From Methyloversatilis sp. (GTDB lineage: Bacteria > Pseudomonadota > Gammaproteobacteria > Burkholderiales > Rhodocyclaceae), in the NCBI RefSeq assembly GCF_030696805.1, contig NZ_JAUYRO010000037.1:62001-126000 (forward strand): a stretch of 64,000 bases of DNA, written 5' to 3'. The position numbers and the translations under genes were made by a program. Every line of letters begins with the position of its first letter. The stretch's first letter is position 1. The notes beneath the pieces were generated by a model. That model saw only the letters and a list, made by a program, of their open reading frames with translations, was not told the origin of the DNA and searched no databases. Below, in pieces: positions 3,144 through 20,238 of this stretch.

Positions 3144-3511
3144 GGCGTGCCGCCCTCCAGCAATTCGGTGTCCGCATGCGCATACGCCGGACTGCAGCAG
3201 CACAGGATGACCAGCGCCTGGCCGCCGGTGGCTTCGATGCAGTGCGGCGTGCCCGGCGCAATCAGTACGGTGTCGCCCGCCGCCACGTCGAAACGGGCGT
3301 CGCCCAAGGTCATGCTGCCTTGGCCAGCGGTCACGTGATAAAGCTCTTCGGTCATGCTGTGCCGATGCAGCAGGGTGCGCGTGCCGGCGGGTATGGTCGC
3401 TTCCGCCAGACTTTGTGCGCGCCCGCCGTGCAGCGACGGATGCATTAGTTCGCGGATCTGCGAGCCGTCCTTCGTGATGTAGGGTGAAATATCGGTGCGG
3501 ATGGTTTTCAT
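3140..3511 (-). CDS. Cupin-domain protein, cysteine-bearing C-terminus
   Basis: A 123-residue cupin_2-type protein. The first metal-binding motif is visible as LLHRHSMTEELYHVTAGQG (His-X-His then Glu) and the second as AAGDTVLIAPGTPHCIEAT with a conserved His, so it probably binds a divalent metal. The C-terminal part has a CCCSP run, which is unusual for small cupins and could bind thiophilic metals (inference). It is the first gene of a two-cupin unit; its stop overlaps the next start by four bases. It is divergent from arsR with about 150 bp between them. Confidence 0.82.
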   Translation of the reverse strand: MKTIRTDISPYITKDGSQIRELMHPSLHGGRAQSLAEATIPAGTRTLLHRHSMTEELYHVTAGQGSMTLGDARFDVAAGDTVLIAPGTPHCIEATGGQALVILCCCSPAYAHADTELLEGGTP

Positions 3512-3640
3512 CGGATTTTCATCGGCGTCGGCTGTGGTCGCGCGTCAACGTGGATTGTGCGTTCAGGCTGAACGTGATGGTACGACCGGATTCAACCGGA
3601 CGCAGCGTCTGCCTGGCACCGGCGTCTTGTTCAGTTTAAT

Positions 3641-3660
3641 AATTCAAGTATTATTGAATT
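3641..3660. promoter_or_regulatory. ArsR operator palindrome
   Basis: A perfect inverted repeat AATTCAA-N6-TTGAATT ends immediately before the ATG of arsR. It lies in an AT-rich patch inside very GC-rich DNA. ArsR-family repressors bind such imperfect or perfect palindromes in their own promoters, and the position would block initiation of arsR-arsI-arsC-acr3. The assignment as operator is inference from sequence and position. Confidence 0.7.
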
Positions 3661-3987
3661 ATGGAAGAACAGAAGGTCATCCGCTCCCTGTCGGCGCTGG
3701 CGCAGGAAATTCGCCTGCGCGTGTTTCGCGCCCTCGTCGTCGCCGGACCTGACGGCATGACGCCCGGTGCGCTGGGCGATGCGCTGGATATCGCACCGAC
3801 CACACTGTCCTTCCACCTCAAGGAACTGAGTCAAGCCGGGCTGATCGAGCCGACGCGCGAGGGCCGTCACCTGATCTATCGCGCCGATTATGCGCAGATG
3901 AACGCGCTGCTCGGCTATCTGACCGAAAACTGCTGCCGCGGCGCATCCTGTGCCGAACCGGTAGCGCCTGTCTGCAAAACCTGCTGA
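3661..3987 (+). CDS. arsR: ArsR-family arsenic-responsive repressor
   Basis: A 108-residue winged-helix repressor of the ArsR/SmtB family. The DNA-recognition helix region reads IAPTTLSFHLKELSQAGLI (residues 44-62), followed by the wing. There is no CVC motif in the helix; instead cysteines cluster at the C-terminus (Cys91, Cys92, Cys97, Cys105, Cys108). This resembles ArsR proteins that sense As(III) through a C-terminal cysteine pair plus a third cysteine. It is the first gene of the ars operon, directly after the palindrome at 3641-3660, which suggests autorepression relieved by arsenite or an organoarsenical. Confidence 0.92.
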   Translation: MEEQKVIRSLSALAQEIRLRVFRALVVAGPDGMTPGALGDALDIAPTTLSFHLKELSQAGLIEPTREGRHLIYRADYAQMNALLGYLTENCCRGASCAEPVAPVCKTC

Positions 3988-3999
3988 ACGGAGTCCGCC

Positions 4000-4491
4000 A
4001 TGAAGCGCTTTCACGTCCACCTGCACGTCGACGATCTCGATCGGAGCATCGCCTTCTACAACCGGCTTTTTTCCACGCAACCGGCGCGCCACGAGGCGGA
4101 CTACGCCAAATGGATGCTTGAAGATCCGCCGGTCAATTTCGCGATTTCCACCCGTGGCAGCCAGCCAGGCATCGATCATCTGGGCATCCAGACCGACGAT
4201 CCGGCCGAACTGGCAGCGATGAAGGCGAGCGCCGAAGCGGCCGACATGGCGCTGCTGGACGAAGGCGCTACCAGCTGCTGTTACGCGCGCAGCGAAAAGC
4301 ACTGGATCACCGACCCGCAGGGCATTGCGTGGGAACACTTTCATACGCTGGGTGACATTCCGGTGTTCAACGAAGCACCGGCTGCGGTGGGCACTGAAGC
4401 GGCGTCAGCCTGCTGTGCGCCCAAGGCGCCCGTCACGCGCGGCAAACCGTTGGCCATCGGCGTCAAATCGTCCGCTTCCGGGTGCTGCTGA
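4000..4491 (+). CDS. arsI: ArsI/CadI-family vicinal oxygen chelate protein
   Basis: A 163-residue glyoxalase-fold protein of the ArsI/CadI family. ArsI is an Fe(II)-dependent dioxygenase that breaks the carbon-arsenic bond of trivalent methyl- and aromatic arsenicals. The key ArsI features are visible: an N-terminal metal His (HVHLHV, residues 5-9), His60 in IDHLGIQ, the vicinal pair Cys93-Cys94 in GATSCCYA that binds the arsenical, and Glu112 in IAWEHF. The C-terminal tail carries further CC pairs (138-139 and 162-163). It sits between arsR and arsC, 12 bp after arsR. CadI-like cadmium-induced proteins are the alternative, but the ars context favours ArsI. Confidence 0.85.
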   Translation: MKRFHVHLHVDDLDRSIAFYNRLFSTQPARHEADYAKWMLEDPPVNFAISTRGSQPGIDHLGIQTDDPAELAAMKASAEAADMALLDEGATSCCYARSEKHWITDPQGIAWEHFHTLGDIPVFNEAPAAVGTEAASACCAPKAPVTRGKPLAIGVKSSASGCC

Positions 4492-4492
4492 A

Positions 4493-4984
4493 ATGGGTTC
4501 GCCACTGAACGTGCTGTTCCTGTGCACCCACAATTCGGCGCGCAGTGTGCTCGCCGAATGCCTGCTGAACCATCTGGGCGCCGGGCGTTTCCGCGCGTTT
4601 TCGGCCGGCAGCCAGCCGTCCGGTCGGGTGAATCCATTTGCGCTGCAGGCGCTGGCCGAAGCGGGCGTGGATACGACCGGCGTGTGCAGCAAGAACTGGG
4701 ACACATTCGCCGTACCCGGTGCGCCGGAGATGGATCTGATCATCACGGTGTGCGACAGCGCAGCCGGCGAAATCTGCCCTGTGTGGCCGGGGCATCCGGC
4801 GACCGCCCACTGGGGCTATGCCGATCCGTCCGCCACCACCGGTCCGGACGCGGCAAGGCTGATGGCCTTCCGCGACACGATGACATTGATCCGCCGCCGA
4901 CTCGAGATACTGGTCGCATTGCCGGCCGAACGTCTGGACGCGCTTCGCCTCGAACAGACCGCGCGCAGTCTGGCCGATCGCTGA
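4493..4984 (+). CDS. arsC: Arsenate reductase, low-molecular-weight phosphatase type
   Basis: A 163-residue arsenate reductase of the low-molecular-weight tyrosine phosphatase fold, reducing As(V) to As(III) for export. The phosphate-binding loop CTHNSARS starts at the catalytic Cys11 (CX5R, Arg17). Later cysteines occur in GVCSKNWD, ITVCDSAAGE and ICPVWPG, which suggests a thioredoxin- or glutaredoxin-coupled cycle. The ATG at 4493 lies one base after the arsI stop, so the longer upstream frame is not used. It is third in arsR-arsI-arsC-acr3. Confidence 0.93.
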   Translation: MGSPLNVLFLCTHNSARSVLAECLLNHLGAGRFRAFSAGSQPSGRVNPFALQALAEAGVDTTGVCSKNWDTFAVPGAPEMDLIITVCDSAAGEICPVWPGHPATAHWGYADPSATTGPDAARLMAFRDTMTLIRRRLEILVALPAERLDALRLEQTARSLADR

Positions 4985-4993
4985 GGCCACGCC

Positions 4994-6019
4994 ATGGGAT
5001 TGTTCGAACGTTGGCTGAGCGTCTGGGTGGCGTCATGCATAGCGGCGGGCGTGGGCCTCGGCCTGCTGGCGCCGGGCGCCTTCGAGGCAATTGCGGCGCT
5101 GGAATTCGCACACGTCAATCTGGTGGTCGCGGTGCTCATCTGGGTGATGATCTACCCGATGATGATCCAGATCGACTTTGCGGCGGTGCGCGACGTCGGT
5201 CGCCGGCCGCAGGGCTTGATACTGACACTGGTGATCAACTGGCTGGTCAAGCCCTTCACGATGGCGGCGCTCGGCGTGCTGTTTTTCCGCTATCTTTTTG
5301 CGCCCTGGGTCGATCCGCAATCGGCGACCGAGTACATCGCCGGCATGATCCTGCTCGGCGTCGCGCCGTGCACGGCGATGGTGTTCGTGTGGAGCCAGCT
5401 GACGAAGGGCGATCCGGCCTACACACTGGTGCAGGTGTCGGTGAATGATCTGGTCATGGTGTTCGCGTTCGCGCCCATTGCGGCCTTCCTGCTCGGTGTG
5501 ACCGATGTGGCCGTGCCCTGGGAAACGCTGCTCCTGGCCACAGTGCTCTATGTCGTGCTGCCGCTGGTGGCCGGCGTGCTGACGCGGCGCATGCTCGGTG
5601 GCGGCGAGAAGGTTGCTCATTTCGTGGCGCTGCTCAAGCCGTGGTCCATCGTCGGCCTTCTGGCAACGGTCGTGTTGCTGTTCGGCTTTCAGGCGGAAAC
5701 CATCATTGCCCAGCCTTTCGTGATCGCGCTCATTGCCGTGCCGCTCATTCTGCAGACCTACGGCATTTTTGCCATCACCTTCATCGTCGCACGCATGATC
5801 CGGCTGCCCTATCCGATCGCCGCGCCCGCCTGTCTGATCGGCACCTCGAACTTTTTCGAATTGGCGGTTGCAGTGGCCATTTCGCTGTTCGGCCTGCATT
5901 CGGGCGCCGCACTTGCGACCGTTGTGGGCGTGCTGGTTGAAGTACCGGTCATGCTGTCGCTGGTCGCGTTCACGCGACGTTCGGCACACCTGTTTCCCGA
6001 TTCCAGGGAACTTTCTTAG
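4994..6019 (+). CDS. acr3: ACR3-family arsenite efflux transporter
   Basis: A 341-residue integral membrane protein with about ten hydrophobic helices, matching the ACR3 family that exports arsenite by proton antiport. Conserved features are the cysteine in [15 protein letters not shown] (fourth helix), essential in ACR3 proteins, and the glutamate in [17 protein letters not shown] (ninth helix). It starts nine bases after the arsC stop, completing the ars operon: ArsI releases As(III) from organoarsenicals, ArsC makes it from arsenate, and Acr3 removes it. Confidence 0.95.
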
Positions 6020-6092
6020 AACAAGTCTAAACAAAGCGTCGATTTCGCAATATGATTGCGATTCCCACCCCACCACCAAAGAGGACTCCGAG

Positions 6093-6656
6093 ATGAGCAT
6101 AGTTAACACCACCGTCCAGCCCTTCAGCGCGAACGCATTCCACAACGGCAAGTTTGTTACCGTCACCGACGAAAGCCTCAAGGGCAAGTGGTCGGTCCTC
6201 GTGTTCATGCCTGCTGCATTCACCTTCAACTGCCCGACCGAAGTCGAGGACGCAGCCAACAACTACGCCGAGTTCCAGAAGGCCGGCGCCGAAATCTACA
6301 TCGTCACCACGGATACCCATTTTTCGCACCAGGTGTGGCATGAAACCTCGCCGGCTGTCGGCAAGGCCCAGTTCCCGCTGGTTGGCGATCCGACGCACCA
6401 GCTGACCCGTGCGTTCGGCGTGCATATCGATTCGGAAGGCCTCGCACTGCGCGGCACGTTCGTCATCAATCCGGACGGTGTGATCAAGACCGCTGAAATC
6501 CATGACAACGCGATCGCTCGCGACATGAACGAAACCCTGCGCAAGCTCAAGGCTGCCCAGTTCGTCGCCAGCCATCCGGGTCAGGTCTGCCCGGCCAAGT
6601 GGAAGGAAGGCGCCGAAGCGCTGACGCCGTCGCTGGACCTGGTCGGCAAGATCTGA
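6093..6656 (+). CDS. ahpC: Alkyl hydroperoxide reductase peroxidase subunit AhpC
   Basis: A 187-residue typical two-cysteine peroxiredoxin that reduces hydrogen peroxide and organic peroxides. The peroxidatic Cys47 is in FTFNCPTEVED and the resolving cysteine is in HPGQVCPAKW near residue 166. The ATG at 6093 is preceded by GAGGACTCCGAG as ribosome site; the longer frame upstream runs back into acr3. ahpF follows after an intrinsic terminator, so ahpC is probably made in excess of ahpF, with ahpF reached by read-through or its own promoter. No OxyR site could be confirmed by eye. Confidence 0.96.
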   Translation: MSIVNTTVQPFSANAFHNGKFVTVTDESLKGKWSVLVFMPAAFTFNCPTEVEDAANNYAEFQKAGAEIYIVTTDTHFSHQVWHETSPAVGKAQFPLVGDPTHQLTRAFGVHIDSEGLALRGTFVINPDGVIKTAEIHDNAIARDMNETLRKLKAAQFVASHPGQVCPAKWKEGAEALTPSLDLVGKI

Positions 6657-10363: not shown

Positions 10364-11715
10364 GTTTTTTCCTGTAGCGAAGTTTTCAGCGGCAGCCAGG
10401 CGTCGACCTGCCAGCCACCCTCGGGGCGCGGGCCGGCGCGACAATCGCCGCCCAGCGCCAGTGCGCGTTCGCGCATGCCGACCAGACCGAAACCGCTATC
10501 GGGTGTGGCGTGCGGTCGCGGCTCACCGTCATCGCGTACGCGAAGCGATACCCGGCCGGCACCGGGATCGATGTCGAGCCGGATGTCGATGCGGGTACAG
10601 CGCGCATGCTTGACGGTATTGGTCATGCACTCCTGCACGATGCGGTAAAGCGTGATGTCGTGCATCGCCGACAGCTGACCCAGGTCCTCGTGCAGATCGA
10701 AACTCACCTGAGCCGCATCGGCACAGCGGCTGCGCTGCTTGCCCAGTTCGCGCAGCGCGTGCCCCAGGCCGAGCTCTTCGATGTCGGGCGGGCGCAGGTG
10801 TTCGAGCAGATTGCGCACGAGGCGCAGCATGTGGCCGACCTGTTCCGACATCCAGTGCGCCGACTCGCGATGTTCTGCCAGTTCCGGCCGGCCATCGCAG
10901 GCGTCCGCCAGCAGTCGCGCATGCGGGTGGATCGCCACCAGATACGGGCTCAGCTCATCGTGCAGGTCACGCGCCAGCGCATGCCGGATCTCTTCTTCGT
11001 GCGTGATCAGCTTGCGCAACAGGCGCGCGCGTTCATCGACCGCCGCTTCCAGCGTGGACGCCATGCTGTTGAACGATTCGGAAAGCGGGGCCAGATCACC
11101 CGGGCCGACATTTTCCAGCCGTGCATCGAGTCGCCCTTCGCCGATCGCCGACAGCGCGCGCATCACGCTGCCCAGCGGATGCAGCGCACGGCCGACCGCC
11201 CAGAACACCATCAGGCAGGCGATCAGGCCGATCGCCGCAACCATCGATGTCTGCTTGATGTAGTCGTCCCAGATTTCGCGCAATTCATCGTCCGCATAAG
11301 GCACCAGCCAGTAGTAGCCGATGACCTGCTGGCCCACCCGAATGTCCTTGCGCAGCGGCGAGCGGCTGCGCAGGCGCTCGCCCATCCAGCCCAGCGCAAA
11401 GGGCGCCGATTGTTGCGGGCCGCTGCGCGAGCTGAGGATGAGCTGTCCGCTCGCCGCCCGCACTTCCACTGTCAGGTGGCGCAGACTGCTCAGTTCGCGG
11501 GTGAGCTGGATGCTGGCAAGGAGGGCTTCGGCGGTGACGCCGACCGGCGGCGGCGACAGTGCGCTGGGCAGTAGCGCGTGCGCAAGCCGGGCCACCGACT
11601 CCATCTCGGCGACTGCGTCATCGTGGGCGTCGTACAACCTGCGTACGCTGTCGGCAACGACCAGCAAGGTCATCAGTGACGCGATGATGAGGGTGAGTCT
11701 GATGCGCAGACTCAT
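10360..11715 (-). CDS. NarX-like sensor histidine kinase
   Basis: A 451-residue membrane sensor kinase. It has a helix near residues 7-27, a periplasmic domain to about 155, a second helix (MVAAIGLIACLMVFWAVGRA), a HAMP linker, then the HisKA_3 dimerisation helix with the phosphoacceptor His in HALARDLHDELSPYL. The ATPase domain carries VRDDGEP and GFGLVGMRERA. The ATG at 11715 starts MSLRIRLTL just before the first helix. Its stop overlaps the regulator gene by four bases. The periplasmic domain shows no recognisable ligand motif. Confidence 0.92.
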   Translation of the reverse strand: MSLRIRLTLIIASLMTLLVVADSVRRLYDAHDDAVAEMESVARLAHALLPSALSPPPVGVTAEALLASIQLTRELSSLRHLTVEVRAASGQLILSSRSGPQQSAPFALGWMGERLRSRSPLRKDIRVGQQVIGYYWLVPYADDELREIWDDYIKQTSMVAAIGLIACLMVFWAVGRALHPLGSVMRALSAIGEGRLDARLENVGPGDLAPLSESFNSMASTLEAAVDERARLLRKLITHEEEIRHALARDLHDELSPYLVAIHPHARLLADACDGRPELAEHRESAHWMSEQVGHMLRLVRNLLEHLRPPDIEELGLGHALRELGKQRSRCADAAQVSFDLHEDLGQLSAMHDITLYRIVQECMTNTVKHARCTRIDIRLDIDPGAGRVSLRVRDDGEPRPHATPDSGFGLVGMRERALALGGDCRAGPRPEGGWQVDAWLPLKTSLQEKT

Positions 11716-11817: not shown

Positions 11818-12381
11818 TCAGACGAGCAGGCGCGTGTCGACGTGCTCGATCAGCCCGCCGTGCCTGCTGACCTCGGCCACCATGTGCGCCGTACCGCCCG
11901 GGCCCTCGGGACCGTCGCCATTCCACAGACAGATGAAACACAGCGCGCCGTCCGCGTGCGCGAGCGCTTGATCGATCAGCCACACATTGCATGCTTCATA
12001 CGGGTCGCGGCCATCGGCCAGCGGGCCCAGCGCCGCCGACATTTCCTGCACTGTTGCGCCGGGTGCGGCAAGTGCGCGGCGATAGCGTTCGACCCAGCGT
12101 TCGCCATGCAGCGACGGCCTGACCGAGGTCTGTTCGAAGGTGGCGGTATCGAACGGCAGCAGGATGTGGCGTCTCACGCTGCGTTCGACGCACGCTTCAA
12201 GGAACAGCAGGTCGCCACCGGACGCCGCCTGACTGAAGGCGATGTCGCCGGCAGCGGCGCCATGGCGGTCCAGCGCGGCAGCGATCGCCGCCGCCGCGCC
12301 GGGCTCCATCGCCGGTGGAAAGCGCGGCGCTTCGCGGTCGGGACGGTCCATCACGTGACCGCTGAACAGGAAAGTGGTCAT
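11818..12381 (-). CDS. SLOG-like predicted nucleotide-sensing protein
   Basis: A 187-residue soluble protein. It opens with TTFLFSGHVMDRPDREAPRF, then has an AISQAASGGDLLFLE-like segment (here AFSQAASGGDLLFLEACVER) and RRHILLPFDTATFEQ. This pattern of an opening beta-strand plus glycine loop, a GGD-type motif and a LPF strand resembles the Rossmannoid SLOG superfamily, some members of which sense nucleotide-derived signals next to TIR or CHAT effectors. The assignment is by eye and tentative. It is the last gene of the minus-strand TIR-CHAT-M15 cluster, 40 bp after the M15 gene, so it would work with those products. Confidence 0.55.
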   Translation of the reverse strand: MTTFLFSGHVMDRPDREAPRFPPAMEPGAAAAIAAALDRHGAAAGDIAFSQAASGGDLLFLEACVERSVRRHILLPFDTATFEQTSVRPSLHGERWVERYRRALAAPGATVQEMSAALGPLADGRDPYEACNVWLIDQALAHADGALCFICLWNGDGPEGPGGTAHMVAEVSRHGGLIEHVDTRLLV

Positions 12382-12421
12382 GGCGAGCGGTGCGGCAGGA
12401 AAGCAGGTTCGATCCGCCGCA

Positions 12422-12997
12422 TCATGCCGTATCGCTGGTCAGTCCCGGTACGTAACAGTAGGCGCCGGAGCGCGGATCACGCACATAGCTCAACAGTTGC
12501 CGACGGTTCGGCGCGCCGCCCGGGGCGCGGAGCGACACGTGCACCCAGCCCGAATTCGGGCCCTTGGCCGGGTCGTAGCACTCGCAGATGATCTGGTCGA
12601 ATACCTTGACGTGCTCCGCCACCCATTCGGCCAGCGCGATCGTGGCAACACCGACGATTTCGATGTCGCACGCTTCACCGCGCGCATGCTGGCTGCTGCT
12701 GACCCAGCTCGACGGCTTGCGTTTCAGGGCGCGTTCGAGGGCCTGGCTGCGGAACACGCTGTTCGGCGAAAAGCTGCCGAACTTCGCCCGCACCGGCTCG
12801 AGCACCTCGCGCGCCAGATGTACCGCGGCGCGGAATTCGGTGTCGGATGGAAAGGTGTTCGGAATGCACTGGCGCGATGCGATGTCGGAGCGGGTCAGTT
12901 CGTACAGCCGGAAATGCGGCGACACCTTGTCACGCGGCTGGCAGCCAGCGATGTGCAGCGCGCCGAGCGCCACCTTTGCCTGATCGCGGTCACTCAT
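12422..12997 (-). CDS. M15-type peptidase, no signal peptide
   Basis: A 191-residue protein with the zinc-peptidase signature of family M15 (D-Ala-D-Ala carboxypeptidase and phage endolysin type). SSQHARGEACDIE supplies His104 and Asp111, and GWVHVSL supplies His153. FRS at residues 82-84 and the opening HFRLYELTRSD are also typical of the Peptidase_M15_3 group. There is no signal peptide or membrane helix, so the enzyme is cytoplasmic unless released, as for phage endolysins. Its ATG overlaps the stop of the 1882-residue CHAT gene by four bases, showing coupled translation and a shared job. A cell-wall-cutting effector in a conflict system is the leading inference. Confidence 0.78.
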   Translation of the reverse strand: MSDRDQAKVALGALHIAGCQPRDKVSPHFRLYELTRSDIASRQCIPNTFPSDTEFRAAVHLAREVLEPVRAKFGSFSPNSVFRSQALERALKRKPSSWVSSSQHARGEACDIEIVGVATIALAEWVAEHVKVFDQIICECYDPAKGPNSGWVHVSLRAPGGAPNRRQLLSYVRDPRSGAYCYVPGLTSDTA

Positions 12998-15900
12998 GAC
13001 AGCTCCCGGAAGCGGTTGCGCATGGTGATCAGTGCCGCAATCACCGGCCTGAGTCCGCTTTCGTCACTGCGCACCGACGGCGCAGCATCCGGACCATCGA
13101 GCAGCGCGACCAGGAAATCGAAGTTCTCGGCGATCGACGCGCGTTCGCGCGGGCTGGCGCCGCGACGGAAGGCGTTCAGATACTCGCTCAGCACGCGGTC
13201 GAATCTTGCTTCGACGGCGTCATCACGGGCTGGCGTGCGCTTCGCCGGTTTGCGGGCCGGCGCCCGTGACCGCTTTCCGGCGGGCTTGTCGGGGGGCGCC
13301 GGCAGTGCTTCGGCAATCATCGACAGCAGGCGGCAATCTGCGATGCCGGTCGCCAACCACAGGCCCGGTTCGTCGCAATACTCGGCCTCGCAGGCGACGC
13401 GGATGCGTTCCGCCTCGCTGAGCAGCGCGTCGCGTGGCCACAGTGGTGTGTAATCCGGGTCGCCAGCCGTGGCAAGCAGGTCGGCCAGCGCACTGTTCAC
13501 GAACGGGTAGGCGCTGCTGCGGCCATCCATTTCGAGGGCGTCGCGGTAGTAGGTCGCCATATTGACCAGCGATTCCTGGCGCTCCTGCGCCGTGGTCACC
13601 AGCGCAAGCCGCTTGCACGCGGCACCCATCATGTTCAGGCGCTCCGGCGTTCGGGCACGCTGGATCAGCAGGTCCAGCTCCATGATTGCTGCGATGATCG
13701 AGGTGCGCAGCGACGTGCGCAGGGCTTCGTCCGGCACGCCACCGGCGAGCGATTCCGACCAGCGTCGTCCAGCCAGCCGGACGCGGAAATTGGCGCATTG
13801 CTCGACCACGCGGATCGGGCAATCGCCCTTGCTGGCAGACAGCGCCGCGTCGAGATGTTCGATCGCCCGCGCGTAGTCACCGACCTCGCCCCACAGAAAA
13901 CCGAGCGCTGCACGCACGTCGGCGCGGGCCAGCCACTTTTCGCGTGCGGCGTCGGGCACGCGGTCGAACAGGGCGTCGACGGTGCCCTGCAGCCACCCGA
14001 CGTCGGTCGCGGACGACTGCATGCGCACCGATTCGCGCAGGTTGTCGAGATTGCTCACCAGTTCGGCATGCGAATGCAGCGGACCGGCCGGTCGGGCGGT
14101 CGAACGCGAACCGCCGCCCTGCGCGCGCAGCAGGCGAAAGCCCGGGTCGCCGTAGCACTGGTAGGCGCCAAAGGTGTTCGACTGCGGATGCTGCTGAACG
14201 CAGGCGCGGCGCGCCGCCCGCACGGACTCGCCGAAGCTGTCGCCGGCCAGCATGCGCTGGTAGAACGTGGCGGCGAAGGTCTTGGCGGCATCGTCATCGA
14301 CCGCCCAGCCGGCCGCCACCACCGCCTTCACGCCCATGCGGATGAACTGCACGCCCAGATTGGCAGCCAGCGCCGGGAAGGCCTGCTTGTCCAGCGAGCG
14401 TGTCTTGCCAAGGTGACAGCAGTTGATGAACACCAGCTCCGGCACGTAACGCATCTGTTCTATGTCGCCCGGCGTCAGCAGCACGCCGCGGCCGATCACC
14501 ATGCCCGACAGCAGCTTGCCTCCGGCTGACCCTGACCGGCTCCGGTCGTCTGCGACCCGATAGTCATGTTCGCCATGACCCGCCAGATGCAGGATGCGCC
14601 AGCGACGCCGGTGCAGGCTTTCGAGAATGTCGGTATGGGTGGCGTCGATGCAGGCGTCGGTCTGGTAGCCCAGTTCGGTCAGGCATCCGGCAACGTGCTG
14701 CGCTTCGTCGCGTGCGCCCGGCAGGTCGATGAACTTGTCCCAGCCTTCCAGATCGGGATGACCAATGACCAGCGCCGACAGCTCGGTACCGTGCACCGGT
14801 TGCGCCCGGAACTCGGATGTCTTGAGGGTGCGCAGCAGGCCGCTGCGGGCGGCCGGCGGCAGCGGATTGGTCGCCCAGCGATCTTCCAGCAACTCCCATG
14901 GATAGGCAGCCGATTTTTCATCGAGCACCAGCAGCAGGTTGTTGTTGTCCGGCGCCAGCTCCTTGAGCCGGTTGGGCAGCAGCATGTCGAACAGCGTGCG
15001 TGCCGCTTCGCGATTGCGGCCCGGTTGCGTGCAGGCACGCTCGATGAACTTGCCGGCCAGCGAAAGCTGGCCCAGACCGATGGTTTCCTCGGCGCGCGCG
15101 CGGTTGGTCGACGATACGAAGCGCAGCCGCGTGTCTTCCGGGTCGGTGCTGATTTCCAGCCGGTGCCACCAGTCGCCGTCGCTGTCGAAGCTGACCCGCC
15201 GGCGACCGCCGTCGCCGGCATGCACGGTCTGTTCCGGCCAGCGCACGTCGGCGCCGAAGTCGACCGACGCCAGCACGTCATCCAGTGCATCGGCGGCATT
15301 GATGGTCACGTCCTGGAACAATTCGATCAGCTGCAGTTTCGACAGGTAGACGCGGTCACCCAGCCCCGCATCGATCAGCCGGCGGTTGGTACTCACGACC
15401 GCGCGCAGCAGCGCCTCGATCGAATCGCGCAAGGTCATGCCGCCGGCGCCGCTGCCGATCAATACGGTACTGAGCCCCATCGAACGCATGTCGGCAGCGC
15501 GCATCGGACGTTTCGCCTCCGGCATCTGCACCAGTTCGAAGCAGTAGGTCAGCAGTGCGTCCGATACCGTGGATTCGAGCCGCCCGGGCGACAGCGAGCC
15601 CAGTTCGCCCAGACCCACGATGATGGCCGCGACCGGACGCGCTTCGGGCGTGTCGTTGTAGAACAGCGCACTGCTGCCGATCTGCCCTGGATACAGGCCC
15701 AGATCCATGCGCTGTGTCAGCGGTCCGGCCTGCTCGCCGGGACGCGTGAGCTGCTTGTCGAGTGCCCGTTCGGCGCTGACGATGCTGTCGCCCAGATAGT
15801 GGCCCACCATCAGCGGATGCCTGACGTAGCTAAGGTCGCCATGGGTGAGCTGTACCTCGAGGCCTGGCAGGGCTGGTTCCCCGGAAGGCAGCGGACTGCC

Positions 15901-18642
15901 GGGGCCGAATCCCAGACGCTCGACTTCGGCTGCCGTCGGGATCGAATCGAGGACGGGGGCCGACGCGCTGTGCGAGCCGCCTGCGCCCGCCGCACGTGCA
16001 CCGCGCGCCGTGCCCATGCTGCGCGGCAGTCGCGTGGTCGAGCCCTTCAGCAGCAGATCGGTGTAGCCGGCGAAGGTCTTGCGGCCGAAGTCGTATGAAC
16101 ACAGTGCGTCGTGCGCGGTGTCCTCGGCGAAATACATCGGCACGCCGGGCAGGCGGCCGGACGCCCAGGTGACCGTGCCGTCGCCCTCCGGCGTGTGCGG
16201 AAACACCAGCTTGCGGCGGTTGAACCGGAAGGCGCCGTCGTCGTCGATCAGTTCGTGGCCGCACACGGTTTCCGGCTGCACGCCGGCGACATAGATCATG
16301 TGCTGCGCATCGACCGCGCCGGCCAGCGCGTCCCAGGTGCGGCGTGCGCCACGCAGCACACCTTCATCGGCCAGCTTCCAGCGCTCGCCGAGACCTTCAC
16401 GCAGGCCGGCCCACACGGCAGGGTCGTCATAGCGCAGCGCTGTTCCGTCGGCAGGGAAGGGCAGCAATTCGACCAGACCGGGGTAGCGCCGGACGATGTC
16501 GATGATGCCGTCGCGGCTGTTCAGCAGATCGAGCAGCATCAGCTTGAACTGCGTCGGGTTGCGACCGGTCAGCCAGCGCACCGCCTCGTGCGAGCCATGA
16601 TTGGGCGTACCCAGCATCAGCAGGCGACTGTTCGGCAACTCGCAGATGCGCCGCCAAACTTCGCCACCCTTGCGGTCGGCCATCATCGCGCGCACCACGA
16701 GACCGCCCATCGAATGCGCCACGATATGCAGCGGCTGCTGCTGCGCCTGCAGGTCTGGCAGCCACAGCGTGAGCTGTTCGGCCAGCTGCGCGGCCGCCGC
16801 CTGCACCGAATTGCGCCAGTCGTAGGCGAAGAACTCGACCCGGTGGGTCTGCGCGAGATGCATCAGCAGTGGTGCGTAGAAACTGTCGATCAGGCCATCG
16901 ACCTCGATCTGTGCCGCGTCGATGCCGATCTTTTCCAGCCCGCCGAACGCCAGCGATCTGTAGTTCAGCCAGACGCGATCGCCATCTGCCTTCAGCGAGC
17001 TGCCCATGGTGCCGGGCAGCACGACCGCCAGCGGTTTCGGCAGCCCGCCGGCACGGCTGCGGGCAATCGCGCTGCGCCAGGCCGGCGGTGTCGGCGGCCG
17101 CTCGCTGATCGGCCGAAAGCCCGCGTCCGAGCCGTCGGCGCGGGTCAGACCCTGCAGCAGCCAGTCTGTCGAGCGGGCGTTGTGGAAATAGCTGAAGTGA
17201 TCGACCGCATCGCCCTTGTCCATCTGCTGCCGGGCGCCGTGTTCCGGGCGCTTGATGCCGCCGAACATCGATCCGGTGTTCACCACGAGATCGTGTTCGC
17301 CCTTGTAGAACCAGTCGGTCACGAACACCTTCAGGGCCGACAGGATGGAGTGACCACGCTCGATGTCGCCGGCGATCACCGTCAGATCCGACTCGGTGCG
17401 GGTTTCCGGGTGGTTCAGCAGGCGCACGACGGCCGATCCGGGCATCATCGCTTCCAGCCCGGGGAGCACGCGCGGGTCGGTGCGTTCGCGCAGCACGGCG
17501 GCCATGAAGTCAAGCGCTTCGGGTACCAGCGGCACCTGCTGCAGACCGGCGATGCGGCTGGCGTTGAGCAGCAGCGAAAACCAGCGGTCCAGCCGGCCGG
17601 AGGCGAGCGTGGTGCCCATGGCCGGGCAGGCGACGCGCACGAAGCGCGTGATCCGGAGCTGCTTCGCATCCAGCACTTCGGCCAGCTTCAGCAGCGCGTC
17701 GCGGTCGGCGGCGTAGTCTTCCTTCAGCCGTTTTTCGCCGGCTTCGTCGAGCGGTTCGATGTTCAGCTGCTGGGCGATCGACACGTCTCCGACGAACAGC
17801 CGCTTCAATACTTCGGCGCGCAGCGGGTCGCTGCTGCGCACACGTTGCCCCAGACACAGCAGCTCGCCGACCAAGCCACCGCGAGAGTGGCTGACCAGAT
17901 GCAGCGTGGCGCCCTGCGGCAGCGATTCGGCAAGTTCGAGCGCGTTCTGGATCGGGCTCACAGTCAATGTACGGTGTTCGAAGGCATGGATGCCTTCGCC
18001 ATAGACACTTGCCAGCCGCGCACAGGCGATGGTGCCGCGCGGATTGTCGTCAGCCGCCAGCTTGCCGAAACTGCCATCGAAGCTCGATGCCGTGCCATGC
18101 AGGAACACCAGCAGCGGCTTGTCGTCCGTCGCCTCGACCCGGTCGATCTTCGCGCCGAGCGCAGCGTTCTCGATGTCGCAGCGATACAGCCCCGGCTCAC
18201 GCCCGAGGATTTTCCGCTCGAAGCGCGCGCCAAGCCGGCGGGCGACGAATTCCTGCGCCTTGTCCTTGATGTCGATGCCGAAGAATTCGATCACCCGGGT
18301 CGCCAGACCGAGCGCACTGCCCAGCCCGCGGCTGCCCGGGGTGTCTGCGTTCAGGTCGCCGATATCCCACAGCACTTCGCCATCGCTGCGCGTTTCGGCC
18401 TTCGATCCCGCCTCCTGCATCAGGTCGTCGGCGCGTATCCACAGCTCGAAGCCATTGTCGAGCGTGACACGGGCGATCGCATCAGCCGGTATGACGGTCG
18501 GTTCGGCCGTCGCCGCGGCGCGACTGCCGCCGGGTTGCACTGCGCCCAGCGGTGTGAACGTCACCTCCGATCCGGATGGCGGGCTGACCGCCACACCCTT
18601 GCGCGCGCGGATGCTGAAACGCTCGTATTTCGACTGTTTCAT
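12994..18642 (-). CDS. Giant hydrolase-CHAT fusion protein (1882 aa)
   Basis: An 1882-residue multidomain protein without signal peptide or membrane helices. From the N-terminus: an alpha/beta hydrolase (about 150-460) with LVFLHGT at 178-184 and the nucleophile Ser253 in VSHSRGG; a second, LCAT/lipase-like hydrolase (about 535-830) with VVLPGTMGSSL and Ser644 in VAHSMGG; a region of unknown fold (about 900-1130) with GHYLGD and VGLGELGSLSPGRL; a CHAT caspase-like protease domain (about 1160-1510) with PWELL, His1356 in HLAGHGEHD and Cys1409 in INCCHLG as the catalytic dyad; and a helical, TPR-like C-terminus to 1882 with a Lys/Arg/Pro linker near 1790-1815. AGGAGG lies eight bases before the ATG. 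It follows the TIR gene by 54 bp and overlaps the M15 gene. I infer a regulated protease/lipase effector. Confidence 0.88.
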   Translation of the reverse strand: MKQSKYERFSIRARKGVAVSPPSGSEVTFTPLGAVQPGGSRAAATAEPTVIPADAIARVTLDNGFELWIRADDLMQEAGSKAETRSDGEVLWDIGDLNADTPGSRGLGSALGLATRVIEFFGIDIKDKAQEFVARRLGARFERKILGREPGLYRCDIENAALGAKIDRVEATDDKPLLVFLHGTASSFDGSFGKLAADDNPRGTIACARLASVYGEGIHAFEHRTLTVSPIQNALELAESLPQGATLHLVSHSRGGLVGELLCLGQRVRSSDPLRAEVLKRLFVGDVSIAQQLNIEPLDEAGEKRLKEDYAADRDALLKLAEVLDAKQLRITRFVRVACPAMGTTLASGRLDRWFSLLLNASRIAGLQQVPLVPEALDFMAAVLRERTDPRVLPGLEAMMPGSAVVRLLNHPETRTESDLTVIAGDIERGHSILSALKVFVTDWFYKGEHDLVVNTGSMFGGIKRPEHGARQQMDKGDAVDHFSYFHNARSTDWLLQGLTRADGSDAGFRPISERPPTPPAWRSAIARSRAGGLPKPLAVVLPGTMGSSLKADGDRVWLNYRSLAFGGLEKIGIDAAQIEVDGLIDSFYAPLLMHLAQTHRVEFFAYDWRNSVQAAAAQLAEQLTLWLPDLQAQQQPLHIVAHSMGGLVVRAMMADRKGGEVWRRICELPNSRLLMLGTPNHGSHEAVRWLTGRNPTQFKLMLLDLLNSRDGIIDIVRRYPGLVELLPFPADGTALRYDDPAVWAGLREGLGERWKLADEGVLRGARRTWDALAGAVDAQHMIYVAGVQPETVCGHELIDDDGAFRFNRRKLVFPHTPEGDGTVTWASGRLPGVPMYFAEDTAHDALCSYDFGRKTFAGYTDLLLKGSTTRLPRSMGTARGARAAGAGGSHSASAPVLDSIPTAAEVERLGFGPGSPLPSGEPALPGLEVQLTHGDLSYVRHPLMVGHYLGDSIVSAERALDKQLTRPGEQAGPLTQRMDLGLYPGQIGSSALFYNDTPEARPVAAIIVGLGELGSLSPGRLESTVSDALLTYCFELVQMPEAKRPMRAADMRSMGLSTVLIGSGAGGMTLRDSIEALLRAVVSTNRRLIDAGLGDRVYLSKLQLIELFQDVTINAADALDDVLASVDFGADVRWPEQTVHAGDGGRRRVSFDSDGDWWHRLEISTDPEDTRLRFVSSTNRARAEETIGLGQLSLAGKFIERACTQPGRNREAARTLFDMLLPNRLKELAPDNNNLLLVLDEKSAAYPWELLEDRWATNPLPPAARSGLLRTLKTSEFRAQPVHGTELSALVIGHPDLEGWDKFIDLPGARDEAQHVAGCLTELGYQTDACIDATHTDILESLHRRRWRILHLAGHGEHDYRVADDRSRSGSAGGKLLSGMVIGRGVLLTPGDIEQMRYVPELVFINCCHLGKTRSLDKQAFPALAANLGVQFIRMGVKAVVAAGWAVDDDAAKTFAATFYQRMLAGDSFGESVRAARRACVQQHPQSNTFGAYQCYGDPGFRLLRAQGGGSRSTARPAGPLHSHAELVSNLDNLRESVRMQSSATDVGWLQGTVDALFDRVPDAAREKWLARADVRAALGFLWGEVGDYARAIEHLDAALSASKGDCPIRVVEQCANFRVRLAGRRWSESLAGGVPDEALRTSLRTSIIAAIMELDLLIQRARTPERLNMMGAACKRLALVTTAQERQESLVNMATYYRDALEMDGRSSAYPFVNSALADLLATAGDPDYTPLWPRDALLSEAERIRVACEAEYCDEPGLWLATGIADCRLLSMIAEALPAPPDKPAGKRSRAPARKPAKRTPARDDAVEARFDRVLSEYLNAFRRGASPRERASIAENFDFLVALLDGPDAAPSVRSDESGLRPVIAALITMRNRFRELS

Positions 18643-18696
18643 TGTCCTGACCTCCTGCTGTTGTTCTTGTGTCGCGCCCCAGCCGTTGCCAGGCGC

Positions 18697-19878
18697 TCAG
18701 TTCGCGGCCGCCCCGGATGACCGCGATACGGTGACGACCGACGTTTCGCCACTGTTGTAGCGCAGCGTGCCGGTCATCGTGCTGCTGTTGGCGACGCGCA
18801 GGCTGAGGCTGCCGGTGTTGATCATCACGTTGCCGTTGGCAAAGATGTTCAGCGCAAAATTCACGTCGCGCTCGTACACGTCGCCCGCACCTTCGAAATG
18901 AACATCGGTCACGCCCTGGCCGTAGGTCTGGATCAGCACGGCGTTGTACACCTGCCACACCGGATGCTGCGTGACATTGATGCGCGGGCTGCGCAAAGTC
19001 AGGTCGTTGCCCTGGCGGGTCAGCGTCAACGGAATGCGCTCGCCCTGCGCGTCGACCATGGTCCAGTTGCCGGTCAGGTCGCGCTCGGGCTCCGGCTCCG
19101 GCACTGGAGCGGCGGGTGCGGGCAGGGTGGCGACTGCAACCGGTGCCACAGGCGCTGGAGCCGGGTCATCGGCGACGAACGGGGCAGGCGCCGGTGCGGG
19201 TTGGGGAGTCGTTTCCTCCTCGCCGACGAATACCGCGACGACGAGGATGAAGGTGAAAAAAATCCCGACCCCCCAGACGAACTTGCGCGCGGCACCGATG
19301 ACACGGCCGACCGGCTTCCTGAAGCTTTCCGGCAGCGGCAGGTCGTCGTCTCCGGTGGCGCTCCGGTCCGAGGTGGAGTGGGTCGCGCTGTCCGTCGCCG
19401 TGCTGCGCATCGGCATGCCGGGCAGCTTTTCGAGCACGCCGCACAGTTCGCCGAAGTCGTACTGCCAGCGCTTGTCGGTCATTTCGTGCGCGTTGCGCCG
19501 GCCCAGCGCCGACAGCTCGTCCGGCAGTTCAGCCGCGTCGGGCATGGTCGCGCCGCCAACCAGCACGGGTATGACGCGCACGCCGCGCCGCGTCAGTGCG
19601 CGGGCAATTTCCATGCGTACCGGGTCATTCGGATTGTCGAGCCGGCGCTTGCCCTGGGCGTCGGTCATCGACAGCCAGTGCGGTCCGACCAGCACGAGCA
19701 CGACGTTGCAGCGGTCGAGTTCGCGCTCGATGGCGTCGACGAAGTCCTCACCGGCGGCGATGCTTTCGAGGTCGCGAAAAACCTCCATTCCGGGAAAGGC
19801 CTGCAGCACGTCTTCGTGCAGCGTCTGCGCGTAGCCGCTGCTGTCCTTGCGTCGATACGAAATGAAAAGACGTGCCAT
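18697..19878 (-). CDS. Membrane-anchored TIR-domain protein
   Basis: A 393-residue protein. An N-terminal TIR domain (residues 1-150) opens with ARLFISYRRKDSSGYAQTL. Glu90 in NDPVRMEIARAL sits where bacterial TIR enzymes have their NAD-cleaving glutamate. One helix at 199-219 (FVWGVGIFFTFILVVAVFVG) is followed by a Pro/Ala-rich linker (222-266) and a beta-rich C-terminal domain (267-393, beginning LTGNWTMVDAQGERIPLTLT) that resembles small lipocalin-like or lipid-binding beta barrels. The topology implies a cytoplasmic TIR with the beta domain outside the inner membrane, as if sensing an envelope signal. It is upstream of the CHAT fusion gene in the same orientation. Confidence 0.85.
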   Translation of the reverse strand: MARLFISYRRKDSSGYAQTLHEDVLQAFPGMEVFRDLESIAAGEDFVDAIERELDRCNVVLVLVGPHWLSMTDAQGKRRLDNPNDPVRMEIARALTRRGVRVIPVLVGGATMPDAAELPDELSALGRRNAHEMTDKRWQYDFGELCGVLEKLPGMPMRSTATDSATHSTSDRSATGDDDLPLPESFRKPVGRVIGAARKFVWGVGIFFTFILVVAVFVGEEETTPQPAPAPAPFVADDPAPAPVAPVAVATLPAPAAPVPEPEPERDLTGNWTMVDAQGERIPLTLTRQGNDLTLRSPRINVTQHPVWQVYNAVLIQTYGQGVTDVHFEGAGDVYERDVNFALNIFANGNVMINTGSLSLRVANSSTMTGTLRYNSGETSVVTVSRSSGAAAN

Positions 19879-20238
19879 GGGATGGGCTCAATTCGCAGCG
19901 CGGGATATGAAGACGATGCAGCGCACATTCACGGCGCCGGCACACCTGCAGGCGCGAGGGGCCACGCCGGTGACCGGACCGTCATTGATGCCGATGCACG
20001 AGGCGACGTTGCTCATGGTGTGCTCCACGGGGCCTGCGCGGCATCACGAACGTCCGTGCAGGAAAGGCTTTCGGGCGACGTCGGCAGTCTAGGCGCTTGC
20101 AAACGCCTTGAACACCCGCAAACCGGATGCGCAGCGTGTCGTAGGTCATGAGGACGATACTTGCCGCTATCATCCGGGCTGTTTCCATATTCCTGCCGGT
20201 CGTGGCCTTGAAACGGGCCGCACGCCGCTCCCTGCTGC
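19879..20238. other. Intergenic region between TIR cluster and deacetylase gene
   Basis: These 360 bases separate two divergent units, so they should hold both promoters. Apart from the possible short peptide frame at 19888-20016 I see no recognisable operator, repeat or RNA gene. No frame on either strand looks like a known protein. Confidence 0.5.
19888..20016 (-). CDS. Possible 42-residue cysteine-containing peptide
   Basis: A short frame runs from ATG at 20016 to TGA at 19888, nine bases before the TIR start on the same strand. A GTGGAG ribosome site lies six bases before its ATG. The product has four cysteines (Cys7, Cys23, Cys25, Cys33), including a CRC motif, and a hydrophobic CIVFI end. 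I do not recognise it. Short frames are frequent by chance in GC-rich DNA, so this is a weak call supported only by position and ribosome site; it could be a leader peptide of the TIR-CHAT cluster. Confidence 0.25.
   Translation of the reverse strand: MSNVASCIGINDGPVTGVAPRACRCAGAVNVRCIVFISRAAN

Follow-up and report, generated by a model that had tools for sequence, protein, structure and literature searches.

Whether four adjoining genes of a Methyloversatilis genome form a conflict system, and how such a system might operate, is the question raised by a 64,000-nt stretch of DNA (Methyloversatilis sp., assembly GCF_030696805.1, contig NZ_JAUYRO010000037.1, positions 62,001-126,000, forward strand), which as a whole is termed the window. 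Open reading frame (ORF) calling revealed a compact minus-strand cluster at 11818-19878, which encodes a TIR protein, a giant fusion protein (termed FUS), an M15 peptidase and a SLOG protein. The spacing given in an earlier reading of this locus (the original prediction) was reproduced, namely 54 bp between the TIR and FUS genes, a 4-bp overlap between the FUS and M15 genes, and 40 bp between the M15 and SLOG genes. The end of the cluster had been placed at 20016, where an ATG stands in frame; since an in-frame TGA intervenes, the TIR gene begins at 19878. Hereafter, genomes are denoted by G numbers (G000 being the window's own genome) and loci by L numbers.

The cluster is a real, conserved conflict-type module. 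An even chance is given to the reading that it acts as a TIR-signalled self-destruction module of the abortive-infection type, which would be Thoeris-like in operation, as judged from protein families and structure models. This reading is supported by the gene order conserved in six genomes, by the enrichment of TIR or C14 caspase genes beside FUS and by the kept catalytic residues, as well as by a predicted macro fold that adjoins the CHAT protease and whose IG(S/T)G loop is conserved in part.

Domains and active sites of the four proteins

FUS (1882 aa; 12994..18642, minus strand, as are all features of the cluster; ORF, Pfam and homologues) combines two alpha/beta hydrolases with a CHAT caspase-like protease, in line with the original prediction, and all three scored above their Pfam cut-offs. 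Hydrolase 1 (17143..18135) occupies the DUF7379 region (115.2 bits, cut-off 33), and hydrolase 2 (16003..17055) is LCAT-like (23.7 bits, cut-off 21), with palmitoyl-protein thioesterase 2 and group XV phospholipase A2 as its profile matches in the PDB. The CHAT domain (106.3 bits, cut-off 24), delimited by Pfam and the structure model at about residues 1189-1506 (14125..15078), is followed by a C-terminal helical region at residues 1525-1879 (13006..14070; Pfam and model), within which the Pfam domain TPR-S (PF20308) covers residues 1589-1718 with 47 bits against a cut-off of 27.6. In an alignment of 27 fusions (the window, 23 from genomes and three from plasmids), Ser253 in the SHSRGG motif of hydrolase 1, which we take from its motif to be the nucleophile, was kept in 26 and Ser644 in the AHSMGG motif of hydrolase 2 in 25. 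His1356 and Cys1409, presumably the CHAT dyad by the same kind of assignment, were present in 27/27, so that FUS holds both the profile and the His-Cys pair of a CHAT protease. Asp451, His482 and, in hydrolase 2, Asp821 and His844 were likewise kept throughout, Cys1408 in 26/27 and Asp426 in 25/27.

A further folded domain between the LCAT-like and CHAT parts was disclosed by a structure model of residues 890-1882, which was built with 24 sequences (mean pLDDT 80.4, pTM 0.62). The leading Foldseek matches were macro domains (TTHA0132, macroH2A1.1, PARP14 and MacroD1/2) and leucyl aminopeptidases (PepA) at E values of about 1e-4 to 1e-3, with a TMt of 0.64-0.69 to TTHA0132 and macroH2A1.1/1.2 (E about 1e-4 to 8e-4) and of 0.50-0.56 to MacroD1/2. 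TPR proteins, which are taken as answering to the C-terminal region, were interspersed among these matches, and Csx29 of CRISPR type III-E was found at rank 23. The predicted macro-fold domain (residues 929-1144; 15211..15858), recognised by Foldseek and by sequence profile, contains a glycine-rich IG(S/T)G stretch, in which Gly1063 is kept in 26/27 and which presumably resembles the phosphate-binding loop of macro domains. Each of the 27 aligned fusions contains the macro region, the fold of which was modelled for the window FUS only. Judging from this fold, the domain may bind an ADP-ribose-type ligand, and the macro fold and TPR-S are regarded as candidate signal receivers within FUS. Both had been overlooked in the original prediction, the named modules of which are all present. 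No transmembrane (TM) helix was predicted in FUS, the highest hydropathy being 1.29.

The TIR protein (393 aa; 18697..19878; ORF) begins with a TIR domain at residues 5-139 (19462..19866), which reached 47.8 bits against the Pfam TIR_2 cut-off of 28 (E 2.5e-12), and a profile constructed from eight TIR homologues gave SARM1 TIR chains as the best matches (E 1.7e-11). Glu90, invariant in 8/8 aligned TIRs, corresponds in the SARM1 alignment to the glutamate within DWVHKEI, which we take to be the catalytic residue; the window protein thus holds the TIR fold together with this glutamate, and probably cleaves nicotinamide adenine dinucleotide (NAD+), as its sequence suggests. The membrane anchor that had been claimed is borne out by a predicted TM helix at residues 200-218 (19225..19281; mean hydropathy 2.71). 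A Pro/Ala linker then leads into the C-terminal domain (residues 263-388; 18715..19092), which is about 125 residues long, is beta-rich by eye, matched no Pfam family and would be located in the periplasm.

The M15 peptidase (191 aa; 12422..12997; Pfam, PHROG and phage homologues) exceeded the Peptidase_M15_3 cut-off marginally (24.3 versus 23.2 bits), and His104, Asp111 and His153, which are taken to be the zinc ligands, were invariant in 7/7 aligned sequences. It matched the endolysin family PHROG 894 (E 7.6e-24) and 105 phage records, the ten best of which, annotated as endolysin, peptidase M15 or hypothetical, shared 34-43% identity; by its sequence, the protein is a phage-lysin relative. 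A hydrophobic N-terminus was absent from the hydropathy scan, which agrees with the cytoplasmic location that had been proposed for this putative wall hydrolase.

The fourth protein (187 aa; 11818..12381) has no Pfam family, and a profile search of the PDB gave nothing useful (best E 0.57). Its predicted model (pLDDT 93) matched YpsA (E 6.8e-6, probability 1.00) and ShosA (5.0e-5), the only two matches at E <= 0.001, followed more weakly by a MoCo carrier, DprA, other SLOG folds and unrelated chains. The fold search matched where the profile searches gave nothing, and the assignment of a YpsA/DprA-like SLOG fold, which had been anticipated, is therefore considered settled at the level of the predicted model.

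It was also weighed whether the cluster supplies effectors that are secreted or injected to act on other bacteria or on a host. Effector cargo commonly includes lipases, proteases and wall hydrolases; against this stand the absence of any hydrophobic stretch above 1.53 in FUS, M15 and SLOG, the membrane helix of the TIR protein and the lack of a secretion-effector gene noticed by eye near the loci (VgrG, PAAR and Rhs were not profile-searched), and such a role is considered very improbable.

Distribution, neighbours and exchange of partners

In the relatives set, near-full-length FUS was detected in 18 of 61 genomes, among them 13/13 of the genus, and any match at E <= 0.001 in 24 of them, the window's own genome being included in all distribution counts. 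The class draw yielded FUS in 14/369 genomes (E <= 1e-30) and the phylum draw in 4/398 (1e-60), from which FUS appears rare and patchy outside the genus; SLOG relatives were found in 18/398 genomes at 1e-8. When the raw FUS sequence was compared with genome contigs, four close relatives were reached, all of them Methyloversatilis. Twelve plasmid records matched FUS, with at least 80% of FUS covered in two, and the match on an Azotobacter plasmid adjoins a type I restriction system.

The gene neighbourhoods were compared at 28 FUS loci, comprising the window, 17 loci from one locus set and 10 of 20 regions from another. Excluded from this collection were L051 (G223, a 3963-base contig), L052 (G335, partial architecture), the fragments of G256 and G077, weak or second matches (G018, G019, G025, G034, G041, G058) and plasmid homologues. 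Eight home-made profiles were scanned on these loci and on 20 control stretches, each 20 kb long and drawn from 20 of these genomes; the controls may miss remote members, because the profiles were built partly from FUS loci. A TIR or C14 caspase neighbour was found at 20/28 FUS loci versus 0/20 controls (Fisher's test, 1.9e-7), and beside FUS in 10 of 18 lineages (9.3e-5), the lineage counts having been compiled by hand from the neighbourhood table. SLOG neighbours amounted to 10/28 versus 0/20, and M15 neighbours to 7/28 versus one weak match (1e-7) in the 20 controls. As a baseline independent of the home-made profiles, Pfam TIR_2 gave 65 matches (E <= 1e-6) in 18 whole genomes of about 72.5 Mb, which corresponds to about 0.018 per 20 kb. 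Exactly one such match occurs in each of G001, G002, G007 and G010, with FUS as a neighbour in all but G002, and M15 relatives occur in 7/18 genomes searched, one each and always beside FUS. The M15 linkage and the sole TIR_2 gene beside FUS in G001, G007 and G010 support the self-destruction reading.

Eight of the 28 loci (L026, L027, L028, L043, L044, L047, L049 and L050) matched none of the eight partner profiles in the stretches examined, which mostly reached about 7 kb to either side and were shorter in L028 and L043, so FUS may act alone. The original prediction had described the four-gene set as the conflict system: the conflict-type module stands, but the quartet is not a widely shared core, as its exact form is confined to 6/28 FUS loci and to one genus, besides these partner-less loci. 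They would also fit an unlikely alternative of parallel effectors without a second messenger, in which the TIR enzyme would deplete NAD+, FUS would be self-activated via TPR-S or its N-terminal domain, and several weapons would simply be co-inherited. The same alternative would accommodate TIR and C14 genes that are interchangeable or both present, as well as the orphan TIR genes linked to gltX without FUS in G000 and G002; direct coupling is suggested instead by the macro fold beside CHAT and by a chain encoded in the window's own genome at L090 (contig C47 of G000, 3793-6456, minus strand). This 888-aa protein has a TIR-CHAT-TM-LysM architecture, in which the TM segment is a hydrophobic helix and one LysM is scored by Pfam with a second seen by eye, and the fusion of TIR with CHAT in one chain supports the reading of TIR-signalled self-destruction.

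Within the genus, the quartet in its conserved order (type A) occurs in 6/13 genomes (the window and five others, whose proteins are 62-96% identical to those of the window). It is situated between a histidine kinase gene (HK), which lies downstream together with a LuxR-type regulator (both by Pfam), and an upstream gene on the opposite strand that is presumably deacetylase-like (HDAC). The original prediction had staked itself on the co-occurrence of the four genes and on catalytic residues in homologues; the former is seen in these six genomes, and the active-site residues of TIR, CHAT, the hydrolases and M15 are kept. Six other genomes carry type B, which consists of TIR, FUS and a 381-aa gene beside a gene that is presumably gltX, the TIR being 28-34% and FUS 46-48% identical to the window proteins. 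The thirteenth genome, G002, has FUS and a C14 gene. HDAC and HK are close without the cluster in 5/7 non-type-A genomes, the spacing being about 124 bp in G005 and about 0.9 kb in the other four (G001, G002, G003 and G010); HDAC was not within the 1.5-kb stretch examined in G004 and G007. The site is polymorphic for presence and absence, and the partners differ among close relatives, the former of which also supports the self-destruction module.

Two minor points concern these loci. In G001, two small ORFs, EF-hand-like by eye, fill the type A site between HK and HDAC (L062). The 381-aa protein of type B (L020, 12709-13851, with equivalents in L021-L025), which takes the M15 position, was considered as a second wall hydrolase or lysin and rejected, being lysozyme-like by eye only, with no useful Pfam or PDB match (best E 0.64); one part of it matches PHROG 30036, a family of unknown function.

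At other loci, a C14 caspase gene precedes FUS in L018, L019, L029, L042, L046 and L053 and lies about 1 kb away in L048; L018, L019, L029 and L053 have the caspase without a TIR. A TIR-NB-ARC-TPR protein is encoded in L046 and a patatin-like gene, by eye, is present in L019. SLOG and TPR-S are joined in single chains beside FUS at L019 and L046, the N-terminal part of which is DRHyd-like by eye (no Pfam match in L019). TPR-S and DRHyd were reportedly proposed as predicted immune components by Burroughs and Aravind in 2020, which these chains and the TPR-S domain of FUS recall. On a Rhizobium leguminosarum plasmid, a SLOG relative is found together with two giants scanned as TIR-nSTAND1-WD40, a protein annotated as CHAT and a gene of the GH108 endolysin type, and on a Sinorhizobium plasmid with TIR-TPR, GH108, TPR-S-trypsin and an alpha/beta-hydrolase-like gene (25.8 versus a cut-off of 26.3 bits). 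Partners are exchanged, yet TIR, caspase, wall hydrolase and SLOG recur, fused or separate, across classes, and the clustering of rhizobial SLOG relatives with TIR, CHAT and GH108-type parts is a further support for a TIR-signalled module.

These chains bear on the identity of the signal receiver. SLOG or TPR-S, rather than the macro fold, might receive the signal, with SLOG relaying or destroying the TIR product, a view that comes near to the original prediction. The union of SLOG with TPR-S in L019 and L046, and in L058 (where TPR-S is below the cut-off) also with a nucleotide cyclase, could be taken as evidence for it, together with a SIR2-SLOG ThsA that responds to cyclic ADP-ribose (cADPR) isomers (PMC11204291). 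SLOG was not found at 18/28 FUS loci, including the six type B loci with a TIR, whereas the macro region is shared by every aligned fusion, and this alternative is accordingly rated as doubtful.

More is learned of the outer part of the TIR proteins from their relatives. Single-domain TIR genes adjoin FUS in 15 cases across the 28 loci, and in 15/15 a C-terminal part comes after a candidate helix, the weakest candidates being those of L024 (hydropathy 1.52) and L042 (1.69, where a PASTA stretch itself scores 1.73). The L042 gene (G401, 12872-14938, plus strand), directly 3' of FUS, encodes a TIR that has, besides the predicted helix, five stretches of PASTA (E 6.6e-59), and this PASTA part also scores 160.8 bits with a PknB-type kinase family, below the cut-off of 450, and 135.4 bits with the PADLOC PD-T4-6 models. 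The outer domain diverges more than the TIR domain in pairs of TIR proteins (74 vs 87%, 59 vs 78%, 64 vs 84% and 52 vs 75% identity), and the corresponding values between type A and type B were 32 vs 35% and 32 vs 33%. The two orphan TIR-TM-ectodomain genes, which are type B-like and adjoin gltX, had no FUS near them in the stretch examined; they are the gene of L089 (contig C20 of G000, 3463-4449, minus strand), whose product is 53-59% identical to the TIRs of type B FUS loci, and that of L092 (G002, 3996-5018), 50% identical to the G000 copy. The PASTA and LysM parts beyond the helix, and the C14 caspase that replaces or joins TIR, had been missed in the role originally assigned to the TIR.

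Such outer domains raise the alternative that the module is a response to envelope stress or competitor attack and not to phage. Its TIR outer domain would read the wall, and the module would kill or remodel the cell upon a breach by a phage lysin, a type VI secretion system (T6SS) amidase, an antibiotic or a predator. The five-PASTA TIR beside FUS, the TIR-CHAT-TM-LysM protein and the wall hydrolases within the same units are consistent with it; the window's outer domain matched no family, PASTA was seen at one locus, L046 uses TIR-NB-ARC-TPR, and four loci have a caspase and no TIR, so that an envelope response is thought improbable on balance.

Thoeris-like logic and a candidate mechanism

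In the preferred reading of TIR-signalled self-destruction, the TIR protein would be anchored in the inner membrane, the enzyme lying on the inner side and the C-terminal domain in the periplasm, as the helix and the TIR homology suggest. A trigger, possibly at the envelope, would lead to TIR clustering and to NAD+ cleavage into ADP-ribose or a derivative, for which the SARM1-like TIR and its conserved glutamate speak. The signal would be read by FUS through the modelled macro fold that adjoins CHAT, and TPR-S may take part in this, upon which the released CHAT and the two lipase-like hydrolases, with their active-site residues, may attack proteins and the membrane. The cytoplasmic, lysin-like M15 protein would reach the wall after membrane failure and finish lysis, and SLOG might bind or trim the nucleotide signal and set the threshold.

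Published precedents exist for each leg and support this scheme. A macro-domain ThsA (TM-macro) binds ADP-ribose (ADPR) and IAD (PMC11204291), His-ADPR signals to a TM-macro effector in type II Thoeris, and in type IV Thoeris a caspase-like protease is switched on by N7-cADPR (PMC12847820). Caspase and alpha/beta-hydrolase pairs are described in VMAP systems (PMC7159879), and CHAT in Borvo and CRISPR type III-E (PMC10952713).

The logic is Thoeris-like, but the features of the Thoeris types that could be tested were not found. With type II (PMC11204291), the cluster shares a TIR enzyme encoded beside a macro-fold effector, although the TM helix is here in the TIR and not in the effector, and CHAT, TPR-S and the two hydrolases are additional parts of that effector; its macro domain is aminopeptidase-N-like in sequence, and the type II combination of TM helices with a macro domain is not realised in FUS, where the macro fold is predicted and TM helices are absent. 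Type IV (Rousset 2025, as described in PMC12847820) similarly places a TIR beside a caspase-superfamily protease, and C14 genes occur at FUS loci too, whereas CHAT is here embedded in a 1882-aa chain with lipase-like domains and is accompanied by M15 and SLOG. No type IV families were among the family-scan matches, with no direct sequence comparison with type IV proteases made. Csx29, the TPR-CHAT protease of the type III-E Craspase, resembles FUS in combining CHAT with a helical TPR region, but no Cas7-11 is among the four genes, TPR-S comes after CHAT, and the macro fold and hydrolases come before it. The VMAP/MoxR-vWA ternary systems (PMC7159879) likewise pair caspases with alpha/beta hydrolases and include TIR or SLOG-fold signal enzymes, while in the window the hydrolases and the protease share one chain; MoxR ATPase, vWA and VMAP were absent from the Pfam matches of the four proteins. 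A description of the system was not found in the literature searched, which was open-access only and so gives no proof of absence.

Several results weigh against the Thoeris-like reading. The window TIR reached 43.8 bits with its best-scoring Thoeris equivalog, NCBIfam ThcB4 (type III), for which the cut-off is 220, and FUS, M15 and SLOG matched nothing in PADLOC at E <= 1. By sequence, the nearest solved relative of the macro domain is the N-terminal domain of the leucyl aminopeptidase 3jru (E 5.9e-6) and not an ADPR reader, no ThsA chain was retrieved from the PDB at E <= 1 by a profile search with this domain, and the loop glycines at 1065, 1067 and 1068 vary in distant members (20/27, 16/27 and 19/27). 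The hydrolase serines are replaced by glycine in some fusions (Ser253 in L050; Ser644 in L029 and L046), and the partner-less loci point in the same direction. Defence-island neighbours, which the original prediction had proposed to look for, did not turn up, since PADLOC on 10 flanking window ORFs gave two weak sets of matches only, to a helicase-type ORF (best 47 bits) and to a LuxR-type helix-turn-helix region, and no convincing defence gene.

If the preferred reading holds, its meaning lies in the union of known Thoeris legs in a single effector. Signalling from a TIR to a macro-domain effector and signalling from a TIR to a caspase-like protease belong to separate known Thoeris types, while here one chain beside the TIR holds a predicted macro fold, CHAT and two lipase-like domains, with a phage-type lysin in the operon. 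Based on a single PASTA locus, a single LysM protein and the genes for lysins, a bolder, rather speculative extension is a wall-watching Toll-like pathway, in which a wall-binding TIR (through PASTA, LysM or a new beta domain) would emit an ADP-ribose signal to a macro-CHAT-lipase executioner, and a resident endolysin would finish the cell. On the same tentative footing, partners would be swapped between species while the wall-reading TIR, the macro-CHAT-lipase effector and the domesticated lysin are kept. The preferred reading, if true, would further provide a TIR protein of bacteria that is turned towards the envelope, much as the Toll receptors of animals are turned outward, and would make wall-damage sensing through TIR in bacteria directly testable.

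Promoter scan and further relatives

A promoter scan of the window was uninformative, with none found versus 0.7 expected. Among further SLOG relatives, L058 (9132-11021) encodes a SLOG-guanylate cyclase protein with a weak TPR-S (24.6 bits, cut-off 27.6) and L055 (4038-7793) a vWA-SLOG-cyclase protein of the same SLOG family, both in other Pseudomonadota. In L040, a 102-base 'GIM-2 beta-lactamase' prediction of PLSDB stands immediately after the SLOG gene (10566-10667); it is too short and looks spurious. Finally, two uncharacterised proteins are related to each other, one encoded beside FUS in L019 (12625-13485, 286 aa) and the other beside GH108 in R. leguminosarum (L039, 17464-18240, about 250 aa).

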